From Hoeflea sp. (GTDB taxonomy: Bacteria; Pseudomonadota; Alphaproteobacteria; Rhizobiales; Rhizobiaceae), in assembly GCA_002707605.1 (NCBI GenBank), contig PANK01000001.1, positions 1,537,376-1,571,851 on the forward strand: a stretch of DNA of 34,476 bases. The letters are read 5' to 3'. The notes under the pieces were generated by a model. It was given only the letters and a program-made list of their open reading frames with translations. It was not told the DNA's origin and searched no databases. The first letter of the stretch is position 1. Each line of letters opens with the position of its first letter. A program made the translations under genes and the position numbers. Positions 1 to 15,005 of the stretch are shown here, in pieces.

Positions 1-723
1 AGGCAGCACCCGGTGGCGCGCGCCCGAAAGCGAGCTCACACCCTCGATACGGATGGTGGGTGTGCCGGCGCCGGTGATCCTGGCGCCCATTGCCGTGAGG
101 CAGGCGGCGAGATCGGACACTTCCGGCTCGCAGGCCGCGTTCTCGATGACGGTTTCGCCGTCAGCGAGCGTTGCCGCCATCAGAAGCACATGGGTCGCGC
201 CGACGGAGACCTTCGGGAAGACGAAATGCGCGCCCTTGAGCCCCTTGGGCGCCCGGGCATTGGCATAGCCCCCATCGATCTCGATCTCGGCGCCGAGCGC
301 GCGCAGACCGTCGATGAAAAGATCCACCGGCCGGGTGCCGATAGCGCAGCCGCCGGGCAGCGAGACCTTGGCCTCCCCCATGCGGGCGAGAAGCGGACCG
401 ATGACCCAGAAGCTCGCGCGCATGCGCGAAACCAGCTCATAGGGCGCGGTGGTATCGACGATCGTCCGGGCTGTGAAATGAAGCGTCCGGGCATAGCCGG
501 CATCCTGGCGCTCGCGGCGGCCGACCACGGAAATGTCAACGCCGTGATTGCCGAGAATCCGCTGCAACTGCTCGACGTCGGCCAGGTGCGGCACGTTTTC
601 GAGCGTCAGCGTGTCGTCGGTGAGAAGCGACGCGATCATCAGCGGCAGAGCCGCGTTCTTCGCGCCGGAAATCGGAATGGTGCCGTTGAGCTGATTGCCC
701 CCGACGATCCTGATGCGATCCAT
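1..723 (-). CDS. murA: UDP-N-acetylglucosamine 1-carboxyvinyltransferase, N-terminal part (window-edge partial)
   Basis: First committed step of peptidoglycan synthesis: transfers enolpyruvate from PEP to UDP-GlcNAc in the cytoplasm; target of fosfomycin. The minus strand reads without interruption from ATG at 723 to the window edge, giving 241 of roughly 430 residues. The N-terminus MDRIRIVGG...[10 protein letters not shown] is the family hallmark (the KN pair binds substrate), and [10 protein letters not shown] holds the catalytic Cys, here residue 126. The frame is still open at base 1, so the missing C-terminal part is an edge effect and not a truncation. A GAGGA ribosome site lies 5 bases before the ATG. 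Very secure. Confidence 0.97.
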
Positions 724-870
724 GAAATCCTCGCAAGGTTGCTGCGATTGGTAGGTGGTGCGTGGGCGCACCCGGTGACCGGCCGGAATGCCGGCGCTTT
801 GTGGCGCTGTTTAGACGATACACGCAGCGGCGGCAACTCGGCAGAGAGACCACGCGCGCGCAGGCCCGTT

Positions 871-1047
871 TCAGTTCTCGGACTTCCTGTCCTTTCGCGG
901 AGATGCCGGCAGCCCTTCGGTTTCATCGGCCTCGCCCGAACGACGCGCCCGCACCTGCGCCTTGCGGCGCTGCAGGTTGGCACGCAACTGCTCGGCCAGC
1001 CGCCGCGCCCGCGCATCCTTGCCGTCGTTTTTCTTGTCCTCGGTCAT
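871..1047 (-). CDS. 58-residue basic conserved hypothetical protein upstream of murA
   Basis: A small frame from ATG 1047 to TGA 871, ending 147 bases before the murA start on the same strand. The product MTEDKKNDGKDARARR...RKDRKSEN is rich in Arg, Lys, Asp and Glu, with no signal peptide, membrane segment or cysteine. Residues about 11-38 (ARARRLAEQLRANLQRRKAQ) should form an amphipathic basic helix. I recall a similar short basic protein ahead of murA in Rhizobiaceae, but cannot confirm this here. Function unknown; nucleic-acid binding would be a guess based on charge only. The ribosome site is weak (GAAAAG). Confidence 0.7.
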   Translation of the reverse strand: MTEDKKNDGKDARARRLAEQLRANLQRRKAQVRARRSGEADETEGLPASPRKDRKSEN

Positions 1048-1332
1048 CCGTTTTTCTTTTCACCCGTCATACCGGGCAGATAGCGCAGAAATGCGCGGAC
1101 GGAAAGCGCGAAGGCCGGGATGCCAAGTCGTTGAAAGGAATTGCGCCCAGACTACGTTTTCCCCACCCCGGGAGAAATCGGCGGCATGGACGCGAAAAGC
1201 ACGACAGGCGGGCTTGCGCTTGCGGAAAAGCTATGGCAATAGCGGGCCGCCTTCAGCAGGTCAGCGATTTTCGACACACGTCAATCGCAAACGGGACGCG
1301 CCAAGCGCTCCGCAAACCGGCCGGACGCACGG

Positions 1333-1407
<75 letters not shown>

Positions 1408-1463
1408 GTTTCAAGCCTGATATATCAATAACTTGTTGGTTTCGAAGAGCATTTTCTTCGCGC

Positions 1464-1491
1464 TGCTCCATCAGACTGCTACAGTGGAGCA
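1464..1491 (+). promoter_or_regulatory. Inverted repeat with possible integrase arm-type site before the integrase start
   Basis: TGCTCCA (1464-1470) and TGGAGCA (1485-1491) form 7-bp inverted arms around ACTGCTACAGTG (1475-1486), itself a small ACTG-CTA-CAGT palindrome. The 12-mer recurs exactly at 13954-13965 near the other island end. It may be an integrase arm-binding site, an operator for the integrase gene, or both. The GGAG inside the right arm also serves as a plausible ribosome site for the ATG at 1501. Confidence 0.5.
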
Positions 1492-1500
1492 ATGGAAAAC

Positions 1501-3189
1501 ATGCCCGGACATCCACGCCTATTCCGCCGTGGTGCAACGTTCTACCACCGCGCAGCTGTGCCGGTTGACATCAAGGATACCTACCCAAAGGCAGAGGAGG
1601 TATTCTCGCTCAAGACGAAGGACTACCGAGAGGCCGTCCGCCTTGTCCGTATTCAAGCTGCCCGCGTGGACCGCCTTTTCGAGAAGCATCGCCAAGAGCA
1701 GGCCAGGACAAACGCCCCATCGCTCGCGGAGCTTTCTGCGGCCCAGATCCTGCACATTGAGAATGTCTATTTCGCCCATCTCCTTGATGAAGATGAGGAT
1801 CTACGCCTTGAGGGCTTCGAAGATCGCAGCTTCGAGGAGTACGAACAGGACATCGGAGATCTCGATGCCTTCAACCGGTACTGCTTCGCGAGGGGCACCG
1901 CCGACGCCTTCTTCAGGGACGAAGCCGAGGAAGTGCTCGGATGGCAGAACATAGATCTGAAGCTTGCAGCGGACTCGCCAAGCTGGCGCAAGGTCGTTCG
2001 TGCGCTCCAAGCCGCGACGATCAAGGCGTCCCGAGCGAAGCAGCAACGGAATGCCGGGGAAGTCGTCGAAACTCCGATCATACCGGCGTCCAATGAGGTA
2101 CCCTCCGGGGATACTCCTCTGCTCTCGGTCGCGCTGGCGGAATGGATTGCGGAGAAGCGCAGAACAACGTGGGTCGCAAAAACAGCCGACGACCACCGAA
2201 TCTGGACGGACCGGTTTCTTGTCATCTGCGGCGACAGGCCAATCGAGACCTATCGGAAATCAGACGCACGAGAGTTCAAAGAAGCGCTGATGGCCATTCC
2301 CGCAAACTGGACGAACAATGCGGACCTTCGGGATCTGAGGTTCGACGCAGCCGCGAGACGGGCGAAGGAGCTCGAACTCCCTCCGATGTCGATCTCCAAC
2401 ATCAACAAGGTTATCGGATTTGTGGGGGCATTCTGGAATTGGGCGAAAGCCAACTACGATGACGTGAACGGCAATCTCTTCGAAGGCATGAAGCTCGCGC
2501 GGAGCTCCCGGGCTAGGGATGAGCGCAATCCGTTTTCGGCTGAGGAACTATTGGCGATTTTCCAAAGCCCCCTGTTCACCGGGTGTCACTCTTCGAGAGC
2601 GTGGCGAACTCCGGGCACCTTCATTCCACGAGATAGCGGCCTGTACTGGGTGCCTCTGATAGCGCTCTACACTGGCGCAAGAGCCGGTGAAATCATCCAG
2701 CTCCGCACGGAGGATGTGGCGCTCCAAGACGAGATCCTCAGGTTCGAACTGACGGACGAAGGCGAAGAGCAGAACCTCAAGACGGCGACCTCCCGTCGGC
2801 TCATTCCTGTCCATCCGGCCCTCAAGGAACTCGGCTTCAATGATTTTCTGGAGCGATGCCGCAAGCGCAAACAGGAGCGCCTGTTCCCGGAGATGTCAAA
2901 GGGAAAGGACGGCTATTATTCGTCCTCGTATTCACGCCAGTTCCGCCGTCTGCTCGAAGCTACCGGCATCAAGCACTCGAAGATCTCATTTCACAGCTTC
3001 CGCCATAGTTTCGAGGATGCCTGCCGTAACAGCGGCATCCCGACGGACATCATGAACGCGCTTCAAGGTCACGCCGAGCATGGCATGGCAGCTCGATACG
3101 GCAGCGGTCACAGCCTCCAACGCCTGTCGGAAGAATTGGGGAAGCTAAACTACGAGAAGCTCGACATATCGCATCTCCTATACCGTTAG
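1501..3189 (+). CDS. Tyrosine-type site-specific integrase (island integrase)
   Basis: Integrates and excises the island at tRNA-Thr. The 562-residue product starts with a region like DUF6538 (LFRRGATFYHRAAVP, then SLKTKDYREA), common in proteobacterial island integrases, followed by a long linker, a core-binding domain near residues 200-330 and a catalytic domain. Catalytic residues visible: R394 (TGARAGE), K427 (NLKTATSRR), H498 and R501 (HSFRHSF), H524 (LQGHAEHG) and nucleophile Y533 (ARYGSG). The set is complete, so it should be active. ATG 1501 is preferred because GGAG at 1486-1489 is 11 bases away; ATG 1492 would leave only 2 bases. The gene sits next to attL and reads inward. Confidence 0.93.
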   Translation: MPGHPRLFRRGATFYHRAAVPVDIKDTYPKAEEVFSLKTKDYREAVRLVRIQAARVDRLFEKHRQEQARTNAPSLAELSAAQILHIENVYFAHLLDEDEDLRLEGFEDRSFEEYEQDIGDLDAFNRYCFARGTADAFFRDEAEEVLGWQNIDLKLAADSPSWRKVVRALQAATIKASRAKQQRNAGEVVETPIIPASNEVPSGDTPLLSVALAEWIAEKRRTTWVAKTADDHRIWTDRFLVICGDRPIETYRKSDAREFKEALMAIPANWTNNADLRDLRFDAAARRAKELELPPMSISNINKVIGFVGAFWNWAKANYDDVNGNLFEGMKLARSSRARDERNPFSAEELLAIFQSPLFTGCHSSRAWRTPGTFIPRDSGLYWVPLIALYTGARAGEIIQLRTEDVALQDEILRFELTDEGEEQNLKTATSRRLIPVHPALKELGFNDFLERCRKRKQERLFPEMSKGKDGYYSSSYSRQFRRLLEATGIKHSKISFHSFRHSFEDACRNSGIPTDIMNALQGHAEHGMAARYGSGHSLQRLSEELGKLNYEKLDISHLLYR

Positions 3190-3196
3190 TTGGATG

Positions 3197-3232
3197 TTGT
3201 AACTTTTGCACCCATGGCTTAGCACTTGTAAC
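3197..3232 (+). promoter_or_regulatory. Paired TTGTAAC repeats upstream of hsdR
   Basis: TTGTAAC occurs at 3197-3203 and again at 3226-3232 in the 72-base gap between integrase and hsdR. Spacing of 29 bases, about three helical turns, would suit a dimeric regulator, but no regulator gene is recognised in the island. I see no clear -35/-10 pair. Weak, reported because it is the only region that could hold an hsd operon promoter. Confidence 0.25.
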
Positions 3233-3261
3233 GACATTCATTTCTGTTGTTCGGTGGCGTC

Positions 3262-6200
3262 ATGCGCTCTACCAATTTTGACCATTTAGAACCGCTCAGT
3301 CCGGAATTACATAGGCTTGCGGTTCTGGCCGAACGGTTCTTCTCCGCTGATGCGAACACCTCGCTGATCAAGAGCCGGCAGTTTGCCGAGTACATGGTCA
3401 AGGAAATCGCCGCGCTCTCGGGAAATTATGATGAACAGCGGCGAGAGACGACGAACGAGCTGCTCCGCCGTTTGTCGCGTGAACAGGTGCTCACACGCGA
3501 TATCGCGAGCCTGTTTCACGCGATCCGGATCAAGGGGAACGAGGCCACCCACGACTTCACGGGCACACCATCGGATGCTCTGAGTGCGCTCAAGTTCTGC
3601 AGGACGCTGGGGGTATGGTATCGGCGAACTTTTGGCCGCGACCCAAACTTCAAGCCCGGCCCCTTCGTCCCCCCGCAAGCCCCCTCGGAAGCGGATGATG
3701 CCGTACGGGCGGAGCTGGAAGATCTGCGCGAGAAAGTGCGGCATACGGAAGCCCGCTTGCGGGAGGCTCAGGCGTCCGCCGAGGAGCAGGCAAAAGCGCG
3801 AGAGGCCGCCGAGGAACTGGCGCGGCAATCGGTCGAGGAAAGCACGGTTTGGGAACAGTCAGCGCTGGAGCTCGAAGCCGATCAGGCCAAACTGCGTCGA
3901 AAGCTTGAAGAGCTTCAATCGCAAGCCAAGGCAAAACCCGAGCACTTCATTGCCGAGTTCAAACAGGCAGCCCAGGAAGCGGCCAATCATCTCGATCTCG
4001 ACGAGAGCGACACGCGCGTCCTGATCGATGTGCAACTAATGGACATGGGATGGGAAGCCGACTCCAAGGAACTGCGCCATTCGCGAGGATCGCGGCCCGA
4101 AGAAGGACGCAACCGTGCCATTGCCGAATGGCCGACCGTGACTGGTCCGGTCGATTACGCCCTCTTCGTTGGACTGGTGTGCGTCGGAGTAGTCGAAGCC
4201 AAGCGGGAATCGATTGATGTGCCGTCCACCTTGCTGCAGGCGGAACGCTATGCCCGATCAATCCGGCTCACGAAAGCCGAACTGCACTCCGAGGGGCCAT
4301 GGCAGGACGGACTGGATGAACCCTACCGGGTGCCCTTCGTCTTTGCCACCAATGGCCGTCCCTATCTTCGGCAGTGGAAATCCAAATCGGGCATCTGGTA
4401 TCGCGACATCAGGCGTCCAACCAATCAGGCGCACCCGCTTTCGCAATGGTTTTCTCCCCGCGACCTGCTCGACAAACTCGAAACGGATGTGGATGCTGCC
4501 GCGCTCGGGCTCGCCGAAGAGAACTATGGCAGGGGCCAACTGCGCCCTTATCAGGAAGAGGCGGTGGAAGCCGTCGAAAAGGCCATCGAGACCGGACAGC
4601 GCGACATTCTGGTTTCCATGGCGACCGGCACCGGAAAAACCCGGACAAGCATCGCGCTCATGTATCGGCTGCTGAAGCACAAGCGCTTTCGCCGCATCCT
4701 GTTCCTGGTCGACAGGAAGGCACTCGGCAAGCAGACGAAGGACGCCCTTGAGACCACCGAGATGGAAGGGCTGCTGAATTTCGCGCAGATCTACAAGGTG
4801 GCCGGGCTGGACCAGAAGGTCCCGGAACCGGAAGATCAGGTGCAGGTGGCGACCGTTCAATCGCTGATCGCGCGGATCACGAACGAGCCGGATGTCAGCA
4901 GCCGCCCCACCCCAGCAACATTTGACTGCATCATCGTGGACGAAGCCCATCGCGGCTACACGCTCGACGCGGAACTGTCGGAATCGGAAGCGGGCTACCG
5001 CAACCTGCAGGACTATCAGTCGGCCTACCGGCAGATTCTCGACTACTTCGATGCCGTCAAGATCGCCTTGACCGCGACACCCGCCCTTCACACACGTGAG
5101 ATCTTCGGCCACCCGGTCTATCACTACGGATACCGTCAGGCCGTGGTGGAAGGCTATCTCAACGACCATCTGCCTCCGAGGCGCATCACCACGGCGCTGG
5201 CGGAAGCGGGCATCCATTTCGATGGCGGCGAGGAAGTGGAGATTGTCGACCGAAAGACCGGGCAGATTGAGCTGTTCGATCTGCCGGACGACGTCGATCT
5301 CGATTACGATCTGGCGGCGTTCAACCGGAAGGTTTACTCCGAGGCCTTCAACAAGATCGTCTGTCGCGCCATAGCCGCAGAGATTCCCACGAGCGCCCCC
5401 GGGAAAACCCTGATCTTCGCCGCGCGGGATACCCATGCAGACGACGTGGTGCGGCTGCTCAGGGAAGAGCTGATCGACGAATACGGCGCTTCGGCAGTTC
5501 CGCACAACATGGTGATGAAGATCACCGGAAGCGTGGACAAGACAGAGGAGTGGATCCTCAAGTTCAAGAACGATCCGTTCCCGAAATACGTCGTCACGGT
5601 CGATCTGCTCACCACCGGCATCGACGTTCCGTCGATCTGCAATCTGGTTTTCCTGCGCCGCGTGAAAAGCCGCATCCTCTACGATCAGATGATCGGACGG
5701 GCCACTAGGCTCTGTCCGGAAATCGGCAAGGACCATTTCCGGATCTTCGACGCCGTGAACCTCTATGCCGAACTGCAGGAAATATCCGACATGCGGCCCG
5801 TCGTGGTCCGGCCTGACATATCACTGGGGCAACTGGTGGGCGATCTCTTCCGGGCAAGCGAGGCGGAGGACAAGGACTGGGTTGCCGGTCAGGTCGTGGT
5901 GCGGATGCGTGGTCTGGCGTCGAACATAGACGCCGAGACGCGGGAGAACTTCGAGCGACACACCGGACAGTCACCGGAGGATGCCATCAAGGCCGCATCC
6001 ACCAAAACCGGGGAGCAACTGGAGGCGTGGCTGAGAAGCTATCCTCGCGCCGTCGAGCTTCTGCAACGCCGCCCGGTTTCCAGAGGCGACCGCCGGGATG
6101 GCGTGGTGATCTCCCATCACGAGGACGAACTGCTGCGGATCGAGGAGGTCTTCGGCAAGAACACCACGCCCGAGGACTACATCGAGAGTTTCGAGCGCTA

Positions 6201-6675
6201 TGTCCGCGAGAACATGAACGTGGTTCCGGCGCTGATTGCCGTGACGCAGAAGCCGCGTGATCTCACCCGCAAGGAATTGTCGGAACTCGCAGGGTTGCTC
6301 GACGAGAAGAACTATTCGGAATCCATGCTACGCGCCGCCTATGGCAAGGCGCGGAATGCCGATATCGCCGCCCACATCATCGGCTTCGTCCGACAGGCCG
6401 CCCTCGGTGACCCGCTCGTTCCCTATGCCACTCGGGTGGAACAGGCGATCGCCGCAATCGAAGCCTCAAAGCCTTGGACCACCAAACAGAAGGACTGGCT
6501 TCGCCGCATAGGCCGCGCCCTGAAGGACAAGCCGGTCGCCGATCCGTCGCTTCTCGACCAGGGCGTCTTCGCCGATAAGGGCGGGTTCAACCGGATCTCG
6601 CAGGAGTTCGACGGCGAACTCGATGCGGTCCTCAAGCAGTTCAACGAAACCATCTGGAACACGCCGGCAGCCTAG
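3262..6675 (+). CDS. hsdR: Type I restriction endonuclease subunit R
   Basis: Motor and nuclease subunit of a type I restriction system: cleaves unmethylated DNA after ATP-driven translocation. The 1137-residue protein has an N-terminal DUF4145-like region (about 10-115), a charged coiled coil (about 150-225), an HSDR_N nuclease fold with D298, E312 and K314 (GPVDYALF...VEAKR), then SF2 helicase motifs: Walker A GTGKT (456-460), DEAH at 560-563, TATPA, and motif VI QMIGRATRL. The C-terminal region resembles the EcoEI type. All nuclease and ATPase residues are present. ATG 3262 is preferred (GGTGG 7 bases upstream); an in-frame TTG at 3247 is the alternative. First gene of the hsd operon; hsdM follows after 64 bases. 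Confidence 0.96.
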   Translation: MRSTNFDHLEPLSPELHRLAVLAERFFSADANTSLIKSRQFAEYMVKEIAALSGNYDEQRRETTNELLRRLSREQVLTRDIASLFHAIRIKGNEATHDFTGTPSDALSALKFCRTLGVWYRRTFGRDPNFKPGPFVPPQAPSEADDAVRAELEDLREKVRHTEARLREAQASAEEQAKAREAAEELARQSVEESTVWEQSALELEADQAKLRRKLEELQSQAKAKPEHFIAEFKQAAQEAANHLDLDESDTRVLIDVQLMDMGWEADSKELRHSRGSRPEEGRNRAIAEWPTVTGPVDYALFVGLVCVGVVEAKRESIDVPSTLLQAERYARSIRLTKAELHSEGPWQDGLDEPYRVPFVFATNGRPYLRQWKSKSGIWYRDIRRPTNQAHPLSQWFSPRDLLDKLETDVDAAALGLAEENYGRGQLRPYQEEAVEAVEKAIETGQRDILVSMATGTGKTRTSIALMYRLLKHKRFRRILFLVDRKALGKQTKDALETTEMEGLLNFAQIYKVAGLDQKVPEPEDQVQVATVQSLIARITNEPDVSSRPTPATFDCIIVDEAHRGYTLDAELSESEAGYRNLQDYQSAYRQILDYFDAVKIALTATPALHTREIFGHPVYHYGYRQAVVEGYLNDHLPPRRITTALAEAGIHFDGGEEVEIVDRKTGQIELFDLPDDVDLDYDLAAFNRKVYSEAFNKIVCRAIAAEIPTSAPGKTLIFAARDTHADDVVRLLREELIDEYGASAVPHNMVMKITGSVDKTEEWILKFKNDPFPKYVVTVDLLTTGIDVPSICNLVFLRRVKSRILYDQMIGRATRLCPEIGKDHFRIFDAVNLYAELQEISDMRPVVVRPDISLGQLVGDLFRASEAEDKDWVAGQVVVRMRGLASNIDAETRENFERHTGQSPEDAIKAASTKTGEQLEAWLRSYPRAVELLQRRPVSRGDRRDGVVISHHEDELLRIEEVFGKNTTPEDYIESFERYVRENMNVVPALIAVTQKPRDLTRKELSELAGLLDEKNYSESMLRAAYGKARNADIAAHIIGFVRQAALGDPLVPYATRVEQAIAAIEASKPWTTKQKDWLRRIGRALKDKPVADPSLLDQGVFADKGGFNRISQEFDGELDAVLKQFNETIWNTPAA

Positions 6676-6739
6676 GCTGCATCCCCGGCGGAATCAGCTA
6701 CAAGGCCAGCGCCACACACGATCAGGAAGCAGTTGATCC

Positions 6740-8284
6740 ATGAATGCGAATACCATCGTCCAGAAGCTCTGGCGCCTCTGCGCCGTTCTCCGCAAGGACG
6801 GCATCACCTATCAGCAGTATGTCACCGAACTGACTTATCTCCTCTTCCTGAAGATGATGGCCGAGCGCAACCGGGAGACCGGAAGCCTGCCGAAAGGCCT
6901 GCGCTGGGAGAACCTGCGGGCCGCTTCCGGCCTCCCCCAGCTTGAACTCTATCGCCACATGCTGGTGACCCTCGGCGCGACCAGCACCCGCATCGGCAAG
7001 GATGACGAACTGCTCACCCCGCCGGGCGAGAACGCAAGCGCGGACGACCGCAAACGCTATGCCGATACGCGGACACTGCCGGTCATGGTGCAGGCCATCT
7101 TCGACAACGCCTCCACCTTCATCCGGGAGCCGCAGAACCTCGCCACGCTGGTTTCGGCGATCGACGACCTCGACTGGTTCTCCGACGAGCGCGACCAGTT
7201 CGGCGATCTCTACGAAGGACTGCTGCAGAAGAACGCCGAGGAAACCAAGCGGGGAGCCGGGCAGTATTTCACGCCGCGCGTTCTCATCGATGTTCTGGTC
7301 CGCCTGATGCAGCCCCAACCGGGCGAGATCATTCAGGACCCGGCTGCAGGCACCGGCGGCTTCCTGATCGCGTCGGATCGCTACATGAAGGCGCGGACGG
7401 ATGAGTATTTCGATCTGGCCGATAGCGGGGCTTGGCAAAAGAAGAACGCTTTTCACGGCATGGAGAACGTGCCGGGCACCCATCGCCTGCTTCTGATGAA
7501 CCTGTACCTGCACGATCTCGACAGCGATCACGTGGATCTCGGCGACACCCTGTCCGACAAGGGCAAGGGGCTGGGCAAAGCCGACCTCATCCTCACCAAT
7601 CCGCCCTTCGGCCCGGCTGGCGGTGCGCCGACGCGGGACGACCTGACGGTCACGGCCTCCGTCTCATCCTACCAGCTGCCCTTCGTCGAGCACTGCATCC
7701 GGTCGCTCAAGCCCGGCGGCCGGGCGGCGATCGTTGTGCCGGACAACGTGCTGTTCGAGGACGGGCGCGGCAAGGCGCTACGCCAGATGATGATGGACTG
7801 GTGCGACCTGCACACCATCCTGCGTCTGCCCACCGGCATCTTCTATGCGCAAGGCGTGAAAACCAACGTCATCTTCCTCACGCGCGGTAAGAAAGAGACC
7901 GCGAACACAAGCGAAGTCTGGATCTACGACCTCCGCGCCCAGATGCCGAAATTCGGCAAGACCAACCAGTTGACGGACGCCCATTTCGAAGGCTTCGAAA
8001 CCGCCTTCGGCGCCAATGCGCTGGGCCATGAGCGCGGCCCTGATGAAGGCGAAGACGGCCGCTGGCGTTGCTTCACGCGCGAGGAGATCGCCACACGAGG
8101 CGACAATCTCGACATTTCCTGGCTGCGGGAGGCCGAAGAGGAAGCCGAGGAGGGCCTGATTGAACCCGAAGATATCGCAGCGGCGATCCTCGGGCATCTG
8201 CAAGCGGCCATGGTGGAGATCGAAGCGCTGAGCGCGGAGATGGAGGAAGTGGCGCCGGTGGATGCGCCGGAGGCGGCGCAATGA
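6740..8284 (+). CDS. hsdM: Type I restriction-modification DNA methyltransferase subunit M
   Basis: Methylates adenine N6 in the target sequence chosen by HsdS, protecting host DNA; also part of the restriction complex. The 514 residues contain the HsdM N-terminal helical domain (about 1-150), the SAM-binding motif DPAAGTGGF from D200, and the catalytic motif NPPF at 287-290. Length is normal for the family. The C-terminal tail is rich in Glu and Ala (EEAEEGLIEPEDIAAAI). The start at 6740 has AGGAAG upstream. Its stop overlaps the hsdS start as ATGA, indicating translational coupling that would keep subunit ratios fixed. Confidence 0.97.
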   Translation: MNANTIVQKLWRLCAVLRKDGITYQQYVTELTYLLFLKMMAERNRETGSLPKGLRWENLRAASGLPQLELYRHMLVTLGATSTRIGKDDELLTPPGENASADDRKRYADTRTLPVMVQAIFDNASTFIREPQNLATLVSAIDDLDWFSDERDQFGDLYEGLLQKNAEETKRGAGQYFTPRVLIDVLVRLMQPQPGEIIQDPAAGTGGFLIASDRYMKARTDEYFDLADSGAWQKKNAFHGMENVPGTHRLLLMNLYLHDLDSDHVDLGDTLSDKGKGLGKADLILTNPPFGPAGGAPTRDDLTVTASVSSYQLPFVEHCIRSLKPGGRAAIVVPDNVLFEDGRGKALRQMMMDWCDLHTILRLPTGIFYAQGVKTNVIFLTRGKKETANTSEVWIYDLRAQMPKFGKTNQLTDAHFEGFETAFGANALGHERGPDEGEDGRWRCFTREEIATRGDNLDISWLREAEEEAEEGLIEPEDIAAAILGHLQAAMVEIEALSAEMEEVAPVDAPEAAQ

Positions 8285-9666
8285 GTGAGTTGCCAAAGGG
8301 GTGGGCGGACGCGGAATTGGGCGACGCTGTTGTTCCGATAGAAACCGATGACCCTCGGAAAAAGCCGGAAAGCCATTTTGTTTACGTAGACATAGGGGCG
8401 ATCGACAACAAGACGCAAAGAATTGTTGAGGCCAGGTCCTTATCAGGAGCGGAGGCACCCTCTCGGGCGCGGCGAGTCATTCGAAATGGGGACGTGCTCT
8501 TCTCGACGGTCCGAACCTACCTGAAGAACATCGCCATGGTCCCTCCCGAACTCGATGGCCAAATAACATCTACCGGTATTGCGGTCTTACGTGCGTCGGA
8601 AGCCGTTGATGCCAGATACATTTTCAATTTGGTTCGCAGTGACGAGTTCATCCGCTCGGTGAGTTTGAAACAGGATGGGACGCTTTATCCCGCGATCACC
8701 GACAACGATTTGTTGACGCATAAAATAAAGCTTCCGCCCCTTGCCGAACAGAAGCGCATCGTCGCCAAGCTGGACAGTCTGAGCGCGAAATCCGCCCGCG
8801 CCCGCATCGAACTTGCCCGCATCGACACCCTCGTCACCCGCTACAAGCAGGCGGTGCTGTCGAAGGCGTTTACGGGGGAATTGACGAAGAAATGGAGAGT
8901 CAAGTCGGTTGCCTTACCAAGACCGGGGTCAATCGACGAAATTCTAAAGATGCCTATCCGCAATGGATTGTCGGTCAAAGGTCGCGAAGCGCCGCCGGGT
9001 GTTCGAGCACTAAAATTGAGCGCTCTCCGGGGACAATCCGTCAACATGAACGACGTGCGATATCTTCCCATAGATAATGACCGAGCTCGACGGTTCCTAT
9101 TAGAGAATGGGGACATCTTGGTCAGCCGAGGAAACGGCACCAAGGAACTGGTTGGGATCTCGTCTCTGGTACCTTCACACAGCGAACCGACGATTTTTCC
9201 CGATACAGCATTCCGCATTCGCATCAATATCGAACAAGCTCTGCCAAACTGGCTTGCGCACATCTGGAATGCTCCTCAATGTCGTTTACAGATCGAGAAG
9301 GCAGCAAAAACGACCGCAGGAATTTGGAAGATTTCCCAAAGGGATTTATCCGGTACCAAATTGCTTATCCCAAGTGTCGACGAGCAACACGAGATCGTCC
9401 GCCGCATCGAGAGCGCTTTCGAGAAGATCGACCGGCTGGCGGCGGAGGCGAAACGGGCGCTGGAACTGGTGGGCAAGCTGGACGAAGCCATCCTCGCCAA
9501 GGCCTTCCGGGGTGAACTGGTGCCCCAGGATCCGAATGACGAACCCGCCAGTGTCCTGCTCGACCGCATCAAGGCCGAACGGGCGGCAGCGCCGAAGACG
9601 AAACGTGGTCGGGGAAATAAGCATACTACATTGGAAACAAGGCCATCAGCGCATGGCAAGACATAA
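8281..9666 (+). CDS. hsdS: Type I restriction-modification specificity subunit S
   Basis: Chooses the bipartite DNA target for both methylation and cleavage. The 461 residues show the usual two-fold layout: target-recognition domain 1 (about 1-150), a conserved helical spacer (about 151-205, LPPLAEQKRIVAKLD...SKAFTGEL), target-recognition domain 2 (about 206-360) and a second conserved spacer (about 363-420, VDEQHEIVRRIES...AKAFRGEL). The two spacers are clearly homologous. The recognition domains are visibly more A/T-rich than the spacers, as expected where domains are exchanged. The stop at 9664-9666 lies inside the next gene, which starts at 9653. Target sequence cannot be predicted by eye. 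Confidence 0.96.
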   Translation: MSELPKGWADAELGDAVVPIETDDPRKKPESHFVYVDIGAIDNKTQRIVEARSLSGAEAPSRARRVIRNGDVLFSTVRTYLKNIAMVPPELDGQITSTGIAVLRASEAVDARYIFNLVRSDEFIRSVSLKQDGTLYPAITDNDLLTHKIKLPPLAEQKRIVAKLDSLSAKSARARIELARIDTLVTRYKQAVLSKAFTGELTKKWRVKSVALPRPGSIDEILKMPIRNGLSVKGREAPPGVRALKLSALRGQSVNMNDVRYLPIDNDRARRFLLENGDILVSRGNGTKELVGISSLVPSHSEPTIFPDTAFRIRINIEQALPNWLAHIWNAPQCRLQIEKAAKTTAGIWKISQRDLSGTKLLIPSVDEQHEIVRRIESAFEKIDRLAAEAKRALELVGKLDEAILAKAFRGELVPQDPNDEPASVLLDRIKAERAAAPKTKRGRGNKHTTLETRPSAHGKT

Positions 9667-10606
9667 GGCTAGGCAACAGTCAAATGAGATCGTGGACGTT
9701 ACGGATTGGCCGGTTGATCCGGAGAACCCCTATTATCCCGAAGGCAAACAGCCAAAGCGACTTCTGATCTCCCCCGGAGAACCCTCTCAGCCATTTTTAT
9801 TGCCGGATCACAAGTATCTCTTCAAAACACCTTCAGGCTGGCAAGAGCGGCAAGTTTGGTCAGAGTTAATTGCCTATGAACTATCCCGGATTGTTGACCT
9901 TGATGTGCCACCTTGTTTTCTGGCCGTGGATCATCGAACGGGGGAGACCGGCGTTCTTGTAGAGTTCTTCTACGGATATGCTGGCGAAGCGCAAATGCGC
10001 TTTATACCCGGTAGTGATCCTACACACGCATGGCTGAAACACGGCTACGACCGTCGACGCGGGCGCCCGCATTTGGTGCGTCAGAACTTGACCCTCTCAC
10101 GGGCTCTTGGGATTGATCGGCCTCGGGAGTGGTGGGCGCGAGCATTTCTCTTTGATGCGCTGATTGGCAATGTTGATCGTCATCCGGATAATTGGGGTTT
10201 TCTAGTGAGGCCAACGGCGGGCCGAAATTTCACCTCGCAGATGGCACCACTATTCGATAATGGCTCTAGCCTCAGTTACGGTGAGACCGACGAGCACCTA
10301 GGACGGCTTACAGATTTGGACGCGTACATTCGACGTGGGCGCCACCACTGTGGATGGCAAGGATCGGACTCCAAAGGCGCTCGACACCTAGAACTTTGTG
10401 AGATGTATCTCACTTCGTACAAACCCACTGGCAATCTAATGGATTTTGTGATTCGATTCACAGATGATGCTATATCTGAGGTGCTGCTGTGGTGCGGCGC
10501 TTTTGACAGCTCAATTGAATTTTCGGAACTTCGTGCAAACTTTCTTCGTTCGCTCCTGATACGTCGTCGCAACCACCTCGCCGCACTATGTGGACCCAAT
10601 GGCTAA
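9653..10606 (+). CDS. Short HipA-like serine/threonine kinase, lacking the classical HipA N-terminus
   Basis: Probable protein kinase of the HipA family, whose characterised members phosphorylate aminoacyl-tRNA synthetases and arrest growth. The 317 residues carry the HipA catalytic core: GNVDRHPDNWGF at 172-183 (catalytic D175, N180) and the DFG-like PLFDNGSSL (D202). Classical HipA has about 440 residues, so the N-terminal subdomain seems absent. No HipB-like DNA-binding gene lies nearby. ATG 9653 overlaps the end of hsdS by 14 bases; the frame is open further upstream but that stretch is inside hsdS. The next gene starts 8 bases before this stop. Base composition is more A/T-rich than hsdR or hsdM. 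Target and partner unknown. Confidence 0.85.
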   Translation: MARHKARQQSNEIVDVTDWPVDPENPYYPEGKQPKRLLISPGEPSQPFLLPDHKYLFKTPSGWQERQVWSELIAYELSRIVDLDVPPCFLAVDHRTGETGVLVEFFYGYAGEAQMRFIPGSDPTHAWLKHGYDRRRGRPHLVRQNLTLSRALGIDRPREWWARAFLFDALIGNVDRHPDNWGFLVRPTAGRNFTSQMAPLFDNGSSLSYGETDEHLGRLTDLDAYIRRGRHHCGWQGSDSKGARHLELCEMYLTSYKPTGNLMDFVIRFTDDAISEVLLWCGAFDSSIEFSELRANFLRSLLIRRRNHLAALCGPNG

Positions 10607-11342
10607 TCTGATCCGACATACAGTTGAACCGAAGAGGCTGCTGCTAACGTGGCAATCTTCCGATGAGAAGGCCACGCGTACCCGTTTTGCTGTAGGAGAA
10701 CTGAAAAATCAGAACCCTCCGTCGTTTCGATATTTTGATGCAACGGAATTTGAAGAGGTCAATGGCACGAATCTAGCCTCGATTCACGACATCGGATTCA
10801 AGCAATATCCAGCCTTTGACCCAACGCGAGCTGAGCACAACGATGGTGTTCTAGGCGCCTTCATGCGTAGACTACCTCCGCGAGGACGTAAGGATTTCGA
10901 CCAATATAAGCATCATTTCCGCATTTCTCCCGACCTGTCGGTGTCCGATTTCCAATTGCTCGCAATGACAGAAGCCAAGCTTCCGAGCGACGGATTCGCC
11001 CTCGTAGATCCTTTGGATCAGACTTGTTCCGCCCGCGATCTCTTAGTTGAGGTCGTAGGACATCGCCACTACGCTTCAGAGTGCGATTTGAGCAACGGCA
11101 TGGGGAGGCAGGTTGAGCTGTCCTCAGAACCTGAGAATCCCAAAGATCCCAACGCCGTAGTCGTGATGCTGTCTGGTCAGAAGCTCGGATATATTAACCG
11201 CTTTCAGGCCAAATCTTTCCTATTGTGGCTGCGCGAAAATCGAGTGCTTGCGACCGTGGAGCGCTTGAATGGCGAGCCCGGCTATCCACGCCTCTACATC
11301 TTCGCCAGAGTTGCTGCAAAGGAAGGGGTGATCGCAGCCTGA
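10599..11342 (+). CDS. HIRAN-domain protein, partner of the HipA-like kinase
   Basis: The 247 residues end in a HIRAN domain (about 148-240: VEVVGHRHYASECDL, then ENPKDPNAVVV, LGYINR), a fold known in other proteins (HLTF, Rad5) to bind DNA 3' ends or damaged DNA. The N-terminal 130 residues (TRFAVGELKN, SFRYFDATEF, GFKQYPAFDP, GAFMRRLPPRG) look to me like the VGxL/FxY start of the HipA N-terminal subdomain; this is inference from pattern. ATG 10599 overlaps the kinase stop (10604-10606); GTG 10590 is an alternative. The tight overlap suggests the pair works as a complex. In bases 10681-10740, 26 of 60 are G/C, against 42 of 60 in hsdM 7561-7620. Confidence 0.8.
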   Translation: MANLIRHTVEPKRLLLTWQSSDEKATRTRFAVGELKNQNPPSFRYFDATEFEEVNGTNLASIHDIGFKQYPAFDPTRAEHNDGVLGAFMRRLPPRGRKDFDQYKHHFRISPDLSVSDFQLLAMTEAKLPSDGFALVDPLDQTCSARDLLVEVVGHRHYASECDLSNGMGRQVELSSEPENPKDPNAVVVMLSGQKLGYINRFQAKSFLLWLRENRVLATVERLNGEPGYPRLYIFARVAAKEGVIAA

Positions 11343-11556
11343 GACATTTCCGAGAATCGCAATTGAAACCGCAGTAGCCAGAAGCTCAAGATCGGCAAAG
11401 TCTTCTCAGCCGAAGACGTATAACCCGCGACCATTTTCGCGAAAAATCTGTAAGCCCGATTTGATATATTGCAGTGGGATTTACCCCCCCGCCCCCCCAA
11501 GGGTCTTCGCGAATTTTTCTTCGGCACTCATGGCCCCGACTGCACCAAGCGACGGA
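11343..11556. other. Non-coding stretch between the defence operon and the recombinase module
   Basis: No convincing gene. It contains a 12-bp palindrome TTTTCGCGAAAA (11434-11445), whose core TTCGCGAA recurs at 11506-11513, and a C7-G-C7 tract at 11484-11498. No clear rho-independent terminator with a T-run follows the HIRAN gene. The next 105 bases hold the res-like repeats described separately. Confidence 0.5.
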
Positions 11557-11659
11557 CGTTCAACAACGTATACAATCATGACCGCAACGACTGCCCATTG
11601 ACACGGCGGTCATTTTTCGTTCAACAATTAATGGTCACAAACCTGTAAAGAAAGTTGAA
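11557..11659 (+). promoter_or_regulatory. Res-like repeat region upstream of the serine recombinase
   Basis: Contains the direct repeat CGTTCAACAA at 11557-11566 and 11618-11627, the inverted repeat ATGACCGC/GCGGTCAT at 11578-11585 and 11606-11613, and GTTGAA (11654-11659), the inverse of TTCAAC in the second direct repeat. About 100 bases of paired repeats directly before a resolvase gene is what a res site with several subsites looks like, and such a site often also represses the gene. Subsite boundaries are not established. Confidence 0.5.
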
Positions 11660-11661
11660 AG

Positions 11662-12222
11662 ATGGCTCTTGTCGGTTATGCGCGTGTGTCCTCAGTGGGG
11701 CAGTCTCTCGAAGTTCAGCACGACAAGCTGAATGCGGCCGGCTGCGAGGAGATCTTCTCGGAGAAGCGGTCTGGACTGGAAGCGGATCGGCCAAGGCTCA
11801 CCGAGTGCCTCCGCTATGTCCGCAAGGGTGACATTCTCGTCATCTCGCGTATCGATCGGCTCGCCCGGTCAGCCGAGCACCTGCTCTCGCTCATCCGGCA
11901 ACTTGAGGACAAGGGCGTGGCCCTCAAGGTTCTCGACCAGAACCTCGACACCTCCGACGCCCCTGGTCGTGCCTTCCTCGGGATGCTTGCGGTCTTCGCC
12001 CAGTTCGAGGCGGACATCCGCCGGGAGCGCCAGATGGACGGGATCGCGAAAGCCAAGACCAATGGCGTGAAGTTCGGGCGCAAACCCCGCCTCACCCCTG
12101 ATCAGGAAGCTGAGGCTATCCGTCTGCGAACGCAAGAGGGCTGGTCGGTGCAACGCATTGCCGATCACTTCGGGATTTCCAAGGGTCTGGCTCACCGGGT
12201 CACCACCGCGAACGTAGCTTAG
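11662..12222 (+). CDS. Serine recombinase (resolvase/invertase family)
   Basis: Small serine recombinase that cuts and rejoins DNA at res-like sites. The 186 residues begin ALVGYARVSS with catalytic S10, continue through ISRIDRLARS (active-site arginines), and GMLAVFAQFEADIRRERQ (the long E-helix), and end in a helix-turn-helix of the Hin/resolvase type (SVQRIADHFGISKGLAHR, about 160-180). Length and motifs match Tn3-type resolvases and DNA invertases. The likely target is the repeat region just upstream. No transposase is present, so it may be a plasmid multimer resolvase remnant that came with the RNase HI and ParB-like genes. The ribosome site is weak (GAAAG). Confidence 0.93.
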   Translation: MALVGYARVSSVGQSLEVQHDKLNAAGCEEIFSEKRSGLEADRPRLTECLRYVRKGDILVISRIDRLARSAEHLLSLIRQLEDKGVALKVLDQNLDTSDAPGRAFLGMLAVFAQFEADIRRERQMDGIAKAKTNGVKFGRKPRLTPDQEAEAIRLRTQEGWSVQRIADHFGISKGLAHRVTTANVA

Positions 12223-12413
12223 TTGGCGCTGCTGCAGTAGTCGTTACCGGTCCGAAAATCTGAAACGGCTTCATATAGCACACGCGAACACCTCGGGCCG
12301 CTGCCCGGCACCACCCGGATTGGGATCGGATGTGTTTGCACGAAAGCTGTCGCGCCGATGGCTACTGCCCTCCCCCTATACCGATTTTCCACAGCATCGA
12401 AGGAGTTCACGCG

Positions 12414-12863
12414 ATGAACCCACCACGACAAATCACGATTTACACCGACGGATCCTGCAAGGGGAATCCCGGACCCGGCGGCTGGGCTGCCGTCCTGACG
12501 GGCAGGAAGAGCCCGAAATGTCTCTCCGGAGGCGTCCCGGCGACCACAAACAACCGGATGGAACTCATGGCGGCCATCGAGGGGCTAAAGGCTCTGTCCC
12601 GACCATCGGAGGTCCTGATTGTCTCCGACAGTGAATACCTCGTCATGGGCGCACGGGATCGTCTCGGCAATTGGAAAGATCGCAACTTCCGGAACGTCAA
12701 GAACACGGACCTGTGGCTTCGGCTCCTGGAGGAAATGGAGCCACATCTCGTCAGCTGGCATTGGACACGCGCTCATGCCGGCGATCGCTTCAACGAGATT
12801 GCAGACAGCCTTGCGAAGAAGCAGGCGGCTATGCAGTCGCGCCACCTGGAGGCCCATGCATGA
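12414..12863 (+). CDS. rnhA: Ribonuclease HI, island-borne copy
   Basis: Degrades RNA in RNA-DNA hybrids. The 149 residues carry the full catalytic set: D12 (YTDGSCKGNPG), E50 (NNRMELMAAI), D72 (VSDSEY) and D131 (EIADSLA), plus H121. ATG 12414 has AAGGAG at 12400-12405, an optimal ribosome site. An extra RNase HI on an island beside a resolvase and a ParB-like gene suggests plasmid origin; such copies may help replication-primer removal or R-loop control. The host's own copy is not in this window. The stop TGA at 12861-12863 overlaps an ATG at 12860 in another frame. Confidence 0.93.
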   Translation: MNPPRQITIYTDGSCKGNPGPGGWAAVLTGRKSPKCLSGGVPATTNNRMELMAAIEGLKALSRPSEVLIVSDSEYLVMGARDRLGNWKDRNFRNVKNTDLWLRLLEEMEPHLVSWHWTRAHAGDRFNEIADSLAKKQAAMQSRHLEAHA

Positions 12864-12893
12864 GGAAACCGTTCCGCCCCGCCTCTCCCGGCA

Positions 12894-13709
12894 TTGACAC
12901 CGTCACGACGGATGCCAGACCCCGGATGCCGCATGTTGCCTGTGGCGCAGGTCCGGACGATGCCGGAGGTCTTCCAGCCGCGAATGTCAGCCGTCTTCGA
13001 GAAGCACGTCAGCGACCTCCGCACTGCGCTACGCAACGCCGGGGAACTCGCCTCCATTCTCGTGATGCCAATCGATGATCATGCCGTGGTGATCGACGGG
13101 CATCATCGCCTCGAAGCATATCGGATGGAAAATCGATCGACGATCCCCGTTGAATTCTTCGTCGGTTCGGTATTGGACGCTCTGCTTCGCTCAGGTTCAG
13201 AGAACAGCAAGGTGACGCTGCCTCTCAGTCTGGAGCAGCGCGGGAACTTCGCATGGAGACTGGTGCAACTGAGAAACGCCGTCGACGTCCCCGGCTGGAT
13301 TTACAGTCGCCGGGAAATCAGCATCTCCGCAGGGATCTCCGAGGGTACCGTCGCGAACATGAGGCGAGCGGTCCACAAGCTCGGAGATGAAGCCTCCACC
13401 CACATCACTTGGCGATCAGCTCAAGAAGCTGCCGCCGGCCTCGAACCACCGGACCTCAAACCATTCGGAGAAGAAGAACTGGAACACCGTGCACAGATGG
13501 TCGCCGATCGGTTGGCGAAGTCACTCGGGACGCACCGAGCTCAGCATCACGAAATCATGGCAAGGGGTCTCACCAAGTTCCTGGGTCGCAACACGCCGGA
13601 GGTGATCATGGAGATGATCGCACAGTGCGAGGCCGACCCGGCGCTCGCCGAGTTTGTCCCGCGTCTCCATGGGCACCCGGAGTGGGACGATGTGGATGCC
13701 GACTATTGA
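12894..13709 (+). CDS. ParB/Srx-fold protein, ParB-like N-terminal domain
   Basis: Starts almost directly with a ParB N-terminal domain: LPVAQVRTMPEVFQPRMS, then VVIDGHHRLEAYR, the GHHR box that in ParB binds CTP or phosphate. Residues about 140-160 (REISISAGISEGTVANMRRA) look like a helix-turn-helix. No ParA is nearby, so a classical partition role is doubtful; a regulator or enzyme of the ParB/sulfiredoxin superfamily is equally possible. The start is uncertain: the coordinates give the longest frame (TTG 12894), with ATG 12912 and ATG 12933 as alternatives, none having a good ribosome site. RNase HI ends 30 bases earlier in the same frame. Confidence 0.78.
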   Translation: MTPSRRMPDPGCRMLPVAQVRTMPEVFQPRMSAVFEKHVSDLRTALRNAGELASILVMPIDDHAVVIDGHHRLEAYRMENRSTIPVEFFVGSVLDALLRSGSENSKVTLPLSLEQRGNFAWRLVQLRNAVDVPGWIYSRREISISAGISEGTVANMRRAVHKLGDEASTHITWRSAQEAAAGLEPPDLKPFGEEELEHRAQMVADRLAKSLGTHRAQHHEIMARGLTKFLGRNTPEVIMEMIAQCEADPALAEFVPRLHGHPEWDDVDADY

Positions 13710-13855
13710 TCTAACTCCTCGGTCCAACGAGGGAGCTTTCAAGGCCCCTAGGTGTTCACGGGGGATCATTCCCTAGGCTGTGCAAATTGCACAGAGTGAG
13801 CACCCATCGACCCATCGGCGGCAACTCATAGTCGACAAACTGACCCGAATAGACG

Positions 13856-13879
13856 CCTCGCCGCTTCCAAGCGGCGGGG
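13856..13879 (+). terminator. GC-rich hairpin after the ParB-like gene
   Basis: CGCCGCTT (13859-13866) pairs perfectly with AAGCGGCG (13869-13876), and CCT/GGG extend the stem with one T-G wobble. The loop is only CC. No T-run follows, so it is either a weak terminator for the rightmost island transcript or a structural element of the island end. Confidence 0.4.
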
Positions 13880-13953
13880 TATCGCCTTTGCCGAGCGCGA
13901 ACTCACGACACTTCGTGCCTCCTCCCACATTTTTTGGCTGGCGGTCGATTGAA

Positions 13954-13975
13954 ACTGCTACAGTGACCTGCTACA
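13954..13975 (+). repeat. Candidate integrase arm-type sites, right end
   Basis: ACTGCTACAGTG at 13954-13965 is an exact copy of 1475-1486; a further CTGCTACA lies at 13968-13975, 13 bases after the first. The 12-mer lies 76 bases inside attR and its twin 59 bases inside attL, distances typical of integrase arm sites. Role inferred from placement. Confidence 0.45.
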
Positions 13976-14040
13976 TTTGCCCTCGGAGTAGCGACAATAA
14001 AGCATTGATATATAAAGCTTTACGGCGCCAGGTGAGAATT

Positions 14041-14072
14041 TTCAAATCTCTCCGGCAGCACCAGTTTCAAGC
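14041..14072 (+). repeat. attR: 32-bp direct repeat, tRNA-Thr 3' fragment
   Basis: Exact copy of 1385-1416, containing the last part of the T-arm, the acceptor stem 3' half and CCA of tRNA-Thr with no tRNA body before it. It marks the right end of the island; the host sequence resumes with ATGTAAG at 14073. Confidence 0.95.
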
Positions 14073-14153
14073 ATGTAAGTCCAAGAATTCCGTGTTCTTC
14101 TCAAGCCAGCTGCAAATCTCGCTCGCCGCTGTCGTGCACGGGAGATTGCCTTT

Positions 14154-15005
14154 CTACCGCAGCAGCAGGACGTCTCCGTCCTTTCGGGGCAGGTCGCTTA
14201 ACGGAACAATCGTATCCGGCTGGGAAAAATGGATGGATCGTGCGTAGCGCGCGGCGAGATGTTCGATCATGCGGTCGGTCTTTTCAGGCCCCATGAACGA
14301 CGGAGAATATTCCATAAGGATGGGAATACCGAGCGAAGTCAGCGGCTCCATGGCCGTCAGCGCTTCATATTCCGCGCCTTCGATATCCATCCAGACGAAA
14401 CCGATCTCCGACGGATTCACGCGCAACTCTGAAAGCAGCGAATCGACGCGCCTCAGGGCCACGGTCACGGTTCTCACCGTTCCGTCGGTCGGCATCAGCC
14501 CACCACGGCCGTGATTGATATCATCGACATGGAAGGTGGCTTCACCATCCCTGTCGCCAGCGGCGACAGGGATGACGATTGCGCGCTCCGAAAGATCGTT
14601 GTCGGCGAGATTTCTGCGCAGGAGACGCAGGTTTCTTTCGTCGGGCTCCAGACAGATGATCCGATCGAAATGTCCCGAGAGCATCAGATAGATAGTTTGT
14701 GTCCCGATATTGGCGCCGATTTCGAGAACGGTCGGACCGCCAATCTGGCCGTGATCTTCCAGAATTTTCACAACGCGGTCAGTCAACCCACGCTGGAAAC
14801 CGCCATCCCTGTAAATCGACTTGCCGACGACTTCATGCGGCGAAAACGTCACCATGTGATCGGAAAAGACCCGCGTCATCCACAATATGTCCGGATCGAG
14901 ACGACGCAGCGTCTCGCGACGATAGCGCTTGTTACGGTTCAAACGAGCATACACGCGTGATCGCAGCCGATGAAAGGCGTGCTCGACACCGACAAATATC
15001 TTCAT
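14154..15005 (-). CDS. FkbM-family methyltransferase
   Basis: SAM-dependent O-methyltransferase of the FkbM family; in Rhizobiales such enzymes often act on cell-surface sugars, but the substrate here is unknown. The 283 residues have a basic N-terminal extension (about 1-60), the SAM-binding motif VLEIGANIGTQT (93-104), ICLEPDE (acidic end of strand 2, about 117-123), and the family motif WMDIEGAEYE (D207, E209, E212). No signal peptide or membrane segment. The first host gene to the right of the island; its stop lies 81 bases beyond attR, so integration did not damage it. Confidence 0.9.
   Translation of the reverse strand: MKIFVGVEHAFHRLRSRVYARLNRNKRYRRETLRRLDPDILWMTRVFSDHMVTFSPHEVVGKSIYRDGGFQRGLTDRVVKILEDHGQIGGPTVLEIGANIGTQTIYLMLSGHFDRIICLEPDERNLRLLRRNLADNDLSERAIVIPVAAGDRDGEATFHVDDINHGRGGLMPTDGTVRTVTVALRRVDSLLSELRVNPSEIGFVWMDIEGAEYEALTAMEPLTSLGIPILMEYSPSFMGPEKTDRMIEHLAARYARSIHFSQPDTIVPLSDLPRKDGDVLLLR

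Follow-up and report, generated by a model that had tools for sequence, protein, structure and literature searches.

A hipIN-type kinase and HIRAN gene pair at the end of a type I restriction operon on a presumed tRNA-Thr island of Hoeflea sp.

We wondered why a type I restriction-modification (R-M) operon of Hoeflea sp. should end with the gene of a shortened HipA-type kinase and an overlapping gene for a protein with a HIRAN domain. The operon lies in a stretch of 34,476 nucleotides (nt) of contig PANK01000001.1, referred to here as the window; all coordinates are positions in this window, position 1 being its first letter. Judged by sequence and predicted folds, the pair is a hipIN module, which consists of the gene of the kinase HipI followed by that of HipN, a protein with a HipS-like and a HIRAN domain, in the passages on hipIN of Gerdes et al. 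(2021, PMC8262856). There hipIN was predicted to be a toxin-antitoxin system, with HIRAN proposed to sense phage DNA ends, activate the kinase and abort the infection. The core of the idea of a split HipA controlled by DNA ends is therefore already published. Our additions are support for the HipS-like fold, natural fusions of the two genes, counts of their pairing and decay, and their recurrence beside restriction genes. The new point is that hipIN recurs beside and inside restriction operons, here in the order hsdR-hsdM-hsdS-hipI-hipN on a tRNA island.

The HipA catalytic core that a sequence-only reading of the locus had recognised in the kinase is conserved: D175, N180 and D202, together with K58 and H177, are invariant in 15 of 15 alignment rows. 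That reading had also put the kinase at about 120 residues short of classical HipA and without a HipB. Indeed, HipI is 123 residues shorter than the 440-residue E. coli HipA, its core motifs start near the N terminus, and its immediate neighbours are hsdS and hipN, with no HipB beside it. The start of hipI lies within the final 14 nt of hsdS and hipN overlaps the end of hipI by 8 nt, all on the same strand, giving a bicistronic arrangement with the kinase first and its partner directly downstream. An ordinary HipA with a mispredicted start was rejected: extended in frame, to position 9107, the kinase reading frame would run within hsdS, which is read in a different frame, and a length of 317 amino acids (aa) is shared by the closest homologue found. 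The PADLOC models PDC-M03A and PDC-M03B match the two window proteins over most of their length, so that PADLOC already lists the pair as a candidate for phage defence (PDC-M03). NCBIfam has no family for either protein.

We take the stretch Y28-PEGKQPK-R36 of HipI to be its Gly-rich loop, going by the HipA motif. No Ser or Thr lies within it, the next Ser being S40, which makes loop autophosphorylation of the kind seen in HipA and HipT look unlikely in HipI. Control of the kinase would then rest on HipN. In this the window kinase differs from the HipI proteins described in PMC8262856, which mostly carry a Ser or Thr near the loop.

The fold of HipN, predicted with AlphaFold2 from 36 sequences (predicted local distance difference test, pLDDT, 94.8; predicted template modelling score, pTM, 0.91), falls into two domains. 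Residues 11-139 superpose on residues 1-105 of HipA (3tpv; Z 8.8, root-mean-square deviation 3.1 A over 101 residues, 18% identity), with Z 8.0 for HipA of S. oneidensis (4pu4) and 7.0, 6.6 and 5.6 for other HipA chains. Among the matches listed, HipA chains were the only family confined to the N-terminal half of HipN. For residues 142-247 the matches are HIRAN domains, that of HLTF at Z 11 and that of Rad5 at Z 9.4, and the Pfam HIRAN match (E 2.7e-8) is above the cut-off; Pfam, Foldseek and the structural comparison together led us to reject a chance match to HIRAN. The sequence-only reading, which had described the second gene as a HipA-N-like segment joined to a HIRAN domain, thus held at the level of the model.

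Because Z values of 7-8 can reflect a common arrangement, a match by sequence profile was needed beside the fold match. It came from a natural one-chain fusion on a viral contig (L071, 547 aa), which we folded as a stand-in for the HipI-HipN pair (pLDDT 91.1, pTM 0.88). The middle part of this protein is a HipA N-terminal domain by Pfam (Couple_hipA, E 8.3e-6, above the cut-off), and structural comparison pairs its kinase half with CtkA (Z 27.7), Legionella HipT (Z 19.5), HipA (Z 18.3) and E. coli O127 HipT (Z 17.7). A HipA-N-like domain in HipN is thus supported by predicted fold and sequence profile together. The pTM of the fusion is the only hint as to how the HipS-like domain might dock onto the kinase.

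The two genes are constant companions. A scan of viral contigs with the kinase profile yielded 60 loci, 53 of which carry a HipI-type kinase (40 clusters at 90% identity); the seven rows dropped were six whose kinases were of another kind or matched weakly, and one (L101) in which a kinase in two pieces lies next to a complete HipN. HipN accompanied all 53 kinases, fused in 16, complete and adjacent in 36 and cut by the contig end in one. A genome search seeded with the kinase (E < 1e-15) returned six loci besides the window: three with HipN, one with HipS alone and two with HipS plus weak helix-turn-helix (HTH) matches below the Pfam cut-offs. The three partners of HipS type without HIRAN suggest that HipS is the constant and HIRAN the exchangeable part. 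At L157:1430-2963 and L158:7806-10398, HipA-type kinases lie beside HipA-N-domain proteins of 213 and 573 aa in which weak HTH matches replace HIRAN.

When the pair decays, it is the kinase that goes. Of 45 genome loci, 40 carry a complete HipN; setting aside the window, the three kinase-seeded loci and two loci that lie at contig ends leaves 34 HipN-seeded loci for a decay count, in which L185 (about 30 C-terminal profile positions missing) was counted as intact and L188 (both genes damaged) was dropped. The kinase is broken, truncated or absent beside a complete HipN in seven of the 34 (L145, L149, L151, L183, L184, L193, L197), and HipN is lost in none of the 53 viral HipI loci, a difference (Fisher p 9e-4) between two different collections. 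Such a direction of decay would be expected were the kinase the harmful partner. At L183 the kinase is gone and HipN still stands behind a type I restriction endonuclease gene, hsdM and hsdS; at L184 the kinase is broken. The nearest relative found (L002) has a HipN 59% and a kinase 66% identical to those of the window.

A fused gene is present in 61 of 5,426 complete E. coli genomes and is chromosomal in each. In the one region that was opened it belongs to a P2-type prophage, where the replication endonuclease and portal genes flank it, at the tin/old defence site of P2. A search of plasmids gave no match, a search of phages two records, and searches of viral contigs with single fused proteins yielded little. 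Of 52 viral loci, counting near-copies, 20 have a gene for a DEDD-type (Pfam Rv2179c-like) 3'-5' exonuclease immediately upstream of the kinase gene; each of the 20 (among L060-L082) has a P2-type gpA nearby, and a DEDD gene is also found at L010:2483-3034.

The HIRAN half of HipN carries counterparts of end-binding residues of HLTF. Aligned with HLTF, whose residues we counted from its chain, R156, N180 and D183 pair with R71, N91 and D94, and they are kept in 25, 34 and 35 of 36 HipN alignment rows, respectively. The exchange R71E is reported to abolish binding of 3'-OH ends by HLTF (PMC11366124). The conserved HLTF-type residues fit HipN as a putative DNA-end sensor.

The sequence-only reading had cast the pair as a back-up that arrests the cell when restriction fails or damages host DNA, and had proposed to survey how often it follows hsdS or other defence genes. 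The 45 genome loci were laid out after two had been dropped as copies (L159 of L002, L205 of L003); L155, L157 and L158 (no HIRAN) and L188 and L191 (HipN incomplete) were excluded from the count of 40, and genome matches covering only the HIRAN half were left out. Neighbouring genes were sought with exemplar-based profiles, and 40 canonical hipA loci given the same treatment served as control. R-M or defence-helicase genes lie within 5 kb of 13/40 hipIN loci and 3/40 canonical hipA loci (p 0.010), and within 3 kb of 12 and 3 (p 0.020), a comparison that favours the hipIN set since the R-M exemplars were taken from the window and the hipIN test loci, and in which the control loci are of the window's class, with shorter stretches, some reaching contig ends, and the hipIN loci come from the phylum and beyond. 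The PADLOC scan covered 16 neighbour proteins of 11 loci, so that other defence systems are undercounted.

Directly upstream of the pair and on the same strand, hsdS was found in five of the 40 loci (the window, L183, L184, L195 and L202) and in none of the controls (p 0.055 on its own), most loci being without it. An hsdS at L189 lies on the opposite strand and counts among the 13 but not the five; the REase_I of L200 was seen only in the PADLOC scan and stands outside the 13. At L202 the genes upstream of the pair further include hsdM, a partial hsdR and a PDC-S02 gene. Other restriction types occur as well: in L144, L145 and L150 two helicase genes (DruE-like and DpdE-like) stand on one side of hipIN and an Eco57I/DrmMI-type methylase on the other, and in L147 hipIN is followed by a type III mod-res pair. 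The recurrent gene set of L144, L145 and L150 looks like a relative of the DISARM or Dpd systems. At L186:6353-7954 a TmcA/NAT10-like helicase-acetyltransferase adjoins the pair.

The hsdS-linked HipN proteins are scattered in a tree of 72 rows built by a quick method with no bootstrap. Their five rows need five changes over the 72, or three among the grouped rows (two of them forced by starred branches), and 40 of 500 shuffles gave a value as low. An hsdS-hipIN operon that arose once and long ago is not favoured, the rows standing in separate places of the tree; more than one capture by hsdS operons is likely, not proven. No R-M or defence-helicase gene was found within 5 kb in 27/40 hipIN loci, the nearest relative L002 included, which makes coupling to hsdRMS plausible but optional. 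Support for the proposed back-up to restriction is circumstantial, and by the criterion that the sequence-only reading had set, that the pair should not occur mostly outside defence loci, the outcome is mixed.

How does the window pair compare with known systems? With hipIN of PMC8262856 it shares the kinase-first order, a small kinase (279-321 aa for HipG/I/J/M) without N-subdomain-1 but with the core motifs, and a downstream partner with HipS-like N-terminal and HIRAN C-terminal domains; its position at the end of a type I R-M operon is absent from the hipIN passages of that account. The HipL form described there has the same three domains in the same order, in one chain instead of two overlapping genes; over its HipN-like part, the P2-type fused gene shares 37% identity with the window HipN. 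PADLOC's PDC-M03 likewise joins adjacent PDC-M03A and PDC-M03B as a labelled candidate without description, and we did not find the name in the open-licence literature. As in HipBST, the kinase lacks N-subdomain-1 and a separate small protein supplies it; unlike hipB-hipS-hipT, the window has no HipB, and the partner lies downstream of the kinase and is extended by HIRAN. HipBA differs by its adjacent HTH antitoxin HipB and a kinase that includes N-subdomain-1. PrrC resembles the pair as a cell-arrest device within a type I R-M locus, and RloC, reported to be fired by DNA breaks (PMC3874168), resembles it in the proposed trigger, whereas the effector here would be a HipA-type kinase with a HipS-HIRAN partner, not a tRNA nuclease. 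Finally, DEDD-type nucleases (diDNase) are described as clustered with HipA-HIRAN pairs in Gram-positive bacteria (PMC11706625); like these clusters, the window has a HipA-domain gene next to a HIRAN-domain gene in the vicinity of defence genes, but no DEDD nuclease adjoins the pair, whereas one does occur in P2-type loci.

We consider it probable, with moderate confidence, that HipN exerts a HipS-like hold on HipI which DNA ends release through HIRAN, and that growth arrest follows. HipI is a kinase core without the HipA N-subdomain-1, and HipN would supply this domain in trans, joined to HIRAN. HipN would bind HipI and keep it off as HipS does HipT, where HipS is described as blocking the Gly-rich loop or the ATP site (PMC10627512, PMC9325769). 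HIRAN would engage free 3' ends of DNA, whether at the termini of phage genomes, in replication intermediates or in the products of restriction, and the end-bound domain would loosen the hold, allowing HipI to phosphorylate a component of translation; growth would stop and the infection be aborted. Fold and decay pattern point to inhibition by HipN, the HIRAN residues to sensing of DNA ends, and the family to growth arrest by HipI; the step with the least support is the coupling to the restriction enzyme encoded next to it. Of the sequence-only reading, the split of HipA agrees with the fold match, the Pfam domain on the fused homologue, the constant pairing and the natural fusions; the antitoxin role it had given to the HIRAN protein is a prediction that fold and decay pattern fit.

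Several points weigh against this mechanism. The Pfam HipA_C match of HipI is marginal (E 6e-7, 29.8 bits, slightly below the cut-off of 30.5), the best HipA match of HipN is close to the range in which a common arrangement suffices, and Foldseek, which the sequence-only reading had named as a check, returned no HipA among the 50 matches listed for the HipN model. The decay count compares loci from genomes with loci from viral contigs, kinases without HipN would escape a search seeded with HipN, and sequencing errors could account for the broken kinases of L145 and L193. R156 is not kept throughout, and the HLTF residue required for duplex binding is described as mostly missing from bacterial HIRAN (Gerdes et al., 2021, PMC8262856). 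The restriction link is further weakened by the loci without such neighbours and by the many other hipIN copies on viral contigs. We found no experiment on a hipIN pair in the open-licence literature.

Could hipIN instead be an ordinary addiction module that stabilises the island or prophage carrying it, with HIRAN tethering the complex to DNA and the restriction genes as co-cargo? Carriage by a tRNA-Thr island, the lack of any match in 100 other genomes of the kin sample, the many viral contigs and the 27 loci without a restriction neighbour would fit. Such neighbours are, however, commoner near hipIN than near canonical hipA, and the pair sits inside or directly behind R-M genes, in several cases with overlaps or short gaps, in separate parts of the HipN tree; we regard this explanation as unlikely. 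HipA is a working kinase with its N-subdomain-1 in place, and HipN might accordingly be the missing structural half and targeting subunit of a kinase active only with HipN, HIRAN bringing it to DNA ends and a DNA-bound substrate. The one-chain fusions (16/53) speak for this, as they indicate that the two halves can function joined. Yet HipS, the characterised separate N-subdomain, is reported to inhibit (PMC10627512, PMC9325769), and loci without an intact kinase retain HipN (7/34), the reverse not having been seen (0/53). Among solved structures the one closest to the kinase half is CtkA, a kinase whose chain has no such domain. Together these points leave this an improbable reading.

A precedent in the same operon position is PrrC, described as silenced by the linked type I enzyme EcoprrI and released by a phage anti-restriction factor (PMC2610378, PMC3874168). 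By analogy, the type I enzyme itself would silence the kinase, a phage anti-restriction protein would disturb the complex and let the kinase fire, and HipN would be an adaptor. This would agree with hsdS lying directly upstream in five loci from separate HipN lineages. Most surveyed hipIN loci have no type I neighbour, however, so that silencing cannot in general depend on the type I enzyme, and L002 has no hsd match within the 16.7 kb of its locus sequence; we consider such silencing very unlikely.

The features of the locus are collected in the table. A complete type I set (hsdR, hsdM, hsdS) lies together and in the same direction upstream of hipIN, and the overlaps and short gaps suggest one transcript for hsdRMS and hipIN. 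Together with the resolvase, these genes are carried by a presumed integrated island of 12.7 kb between the 32-bp repeats. In two congeners, G002 and G003, only about 1.2 and 2.0 kb separate the end of the tRNA from the chromosomal match on the right, which indicates that both lack the island; in G001 the tRNA is present and the right flank has no match. HipN is found in 3/297 genomes of the order sample, the window's own included. A search of positions 1-14500 with Rfam gave the tRNA only. A resolvase-like antitoxin is described for a different family of Hip kinases (PMC8262856), and the resolvase behind hipN may be more than chance.

Features of the hipIN locus and the surrounding island, in window coordinates
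Feature	Position	Strand	Remarks
hipI	9653..10606	+	317 aa; HipA-type kinase core without N-subdomain-1; K35, K58, D175, N180, D202; PDC-M03A E 9.6e-30
hipN	10599..11342	+	247 aa; HipS-like domain and HIRAN domain; PDC-M03B E 1.8e-29
HipS-like / HipA N-subdomain-1-like domain	10629..11015	+	HipN residues 11-139
HIRAN domain	11022..11339	+	HipN residues 142-247
tRNA-Thr (GGT)	1333..1407	+	presumed integration site of the island
32-bp direct repeat, presumed left attachment site	1385..1416	.	3' end of tRNA-Thr
32-bp direct repeat, presumed right attachment site	14041..14072	.	exact copy of 1385-1416
site-specific integrase (DUF6538 and phage integrase)	1492..3189	+	directly inside the left island end
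hsdR, type I restriction subunit	3247..6675	+	ResIII 5e-36, EcoEI_R_C 2e-33
hsdM, type I methyltransferase	6740..8284	+	N6_Mtase 7e-74
hsdS, type I specificity subunit	8281..9666	+	Methylase_S 1.5e-10
serine resolvase	11662..12222	+	Resolvase 1e-40; about 320 bp downstream of hipN
RNase H gene	12330-12863		identified by eye only

What might a restriction operon gain from hipIN? A tentative answer, which we hold to be possible but doubtful, is that hipIN is a general end-sensing arrest cartridge which restriction systems have acquired several times. The hsdR-hsdM-hsdS-hipI-hipN operon, and likewise its type III and helicase-methylase counterparts, would then be a two-tier device that cuts first and then stops the cell, HIRAN reading the ends left by overwhelmed or miscarried restriction, with HipS as the constant lock and the domain that follows it as the exchangeable key. 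The recurrent hsdS-hipI-hipN order offers a ready natural test, because the presumed maker of the trigger (the restriction enzyme), the sensor (HIRAN), the lock (HipS) and the effector (the kinase) stand in one gene set. If DNA ends do switch the kinase, hipIN would join growth arrest of the HipA type to the sensing of DNA ends in defence.

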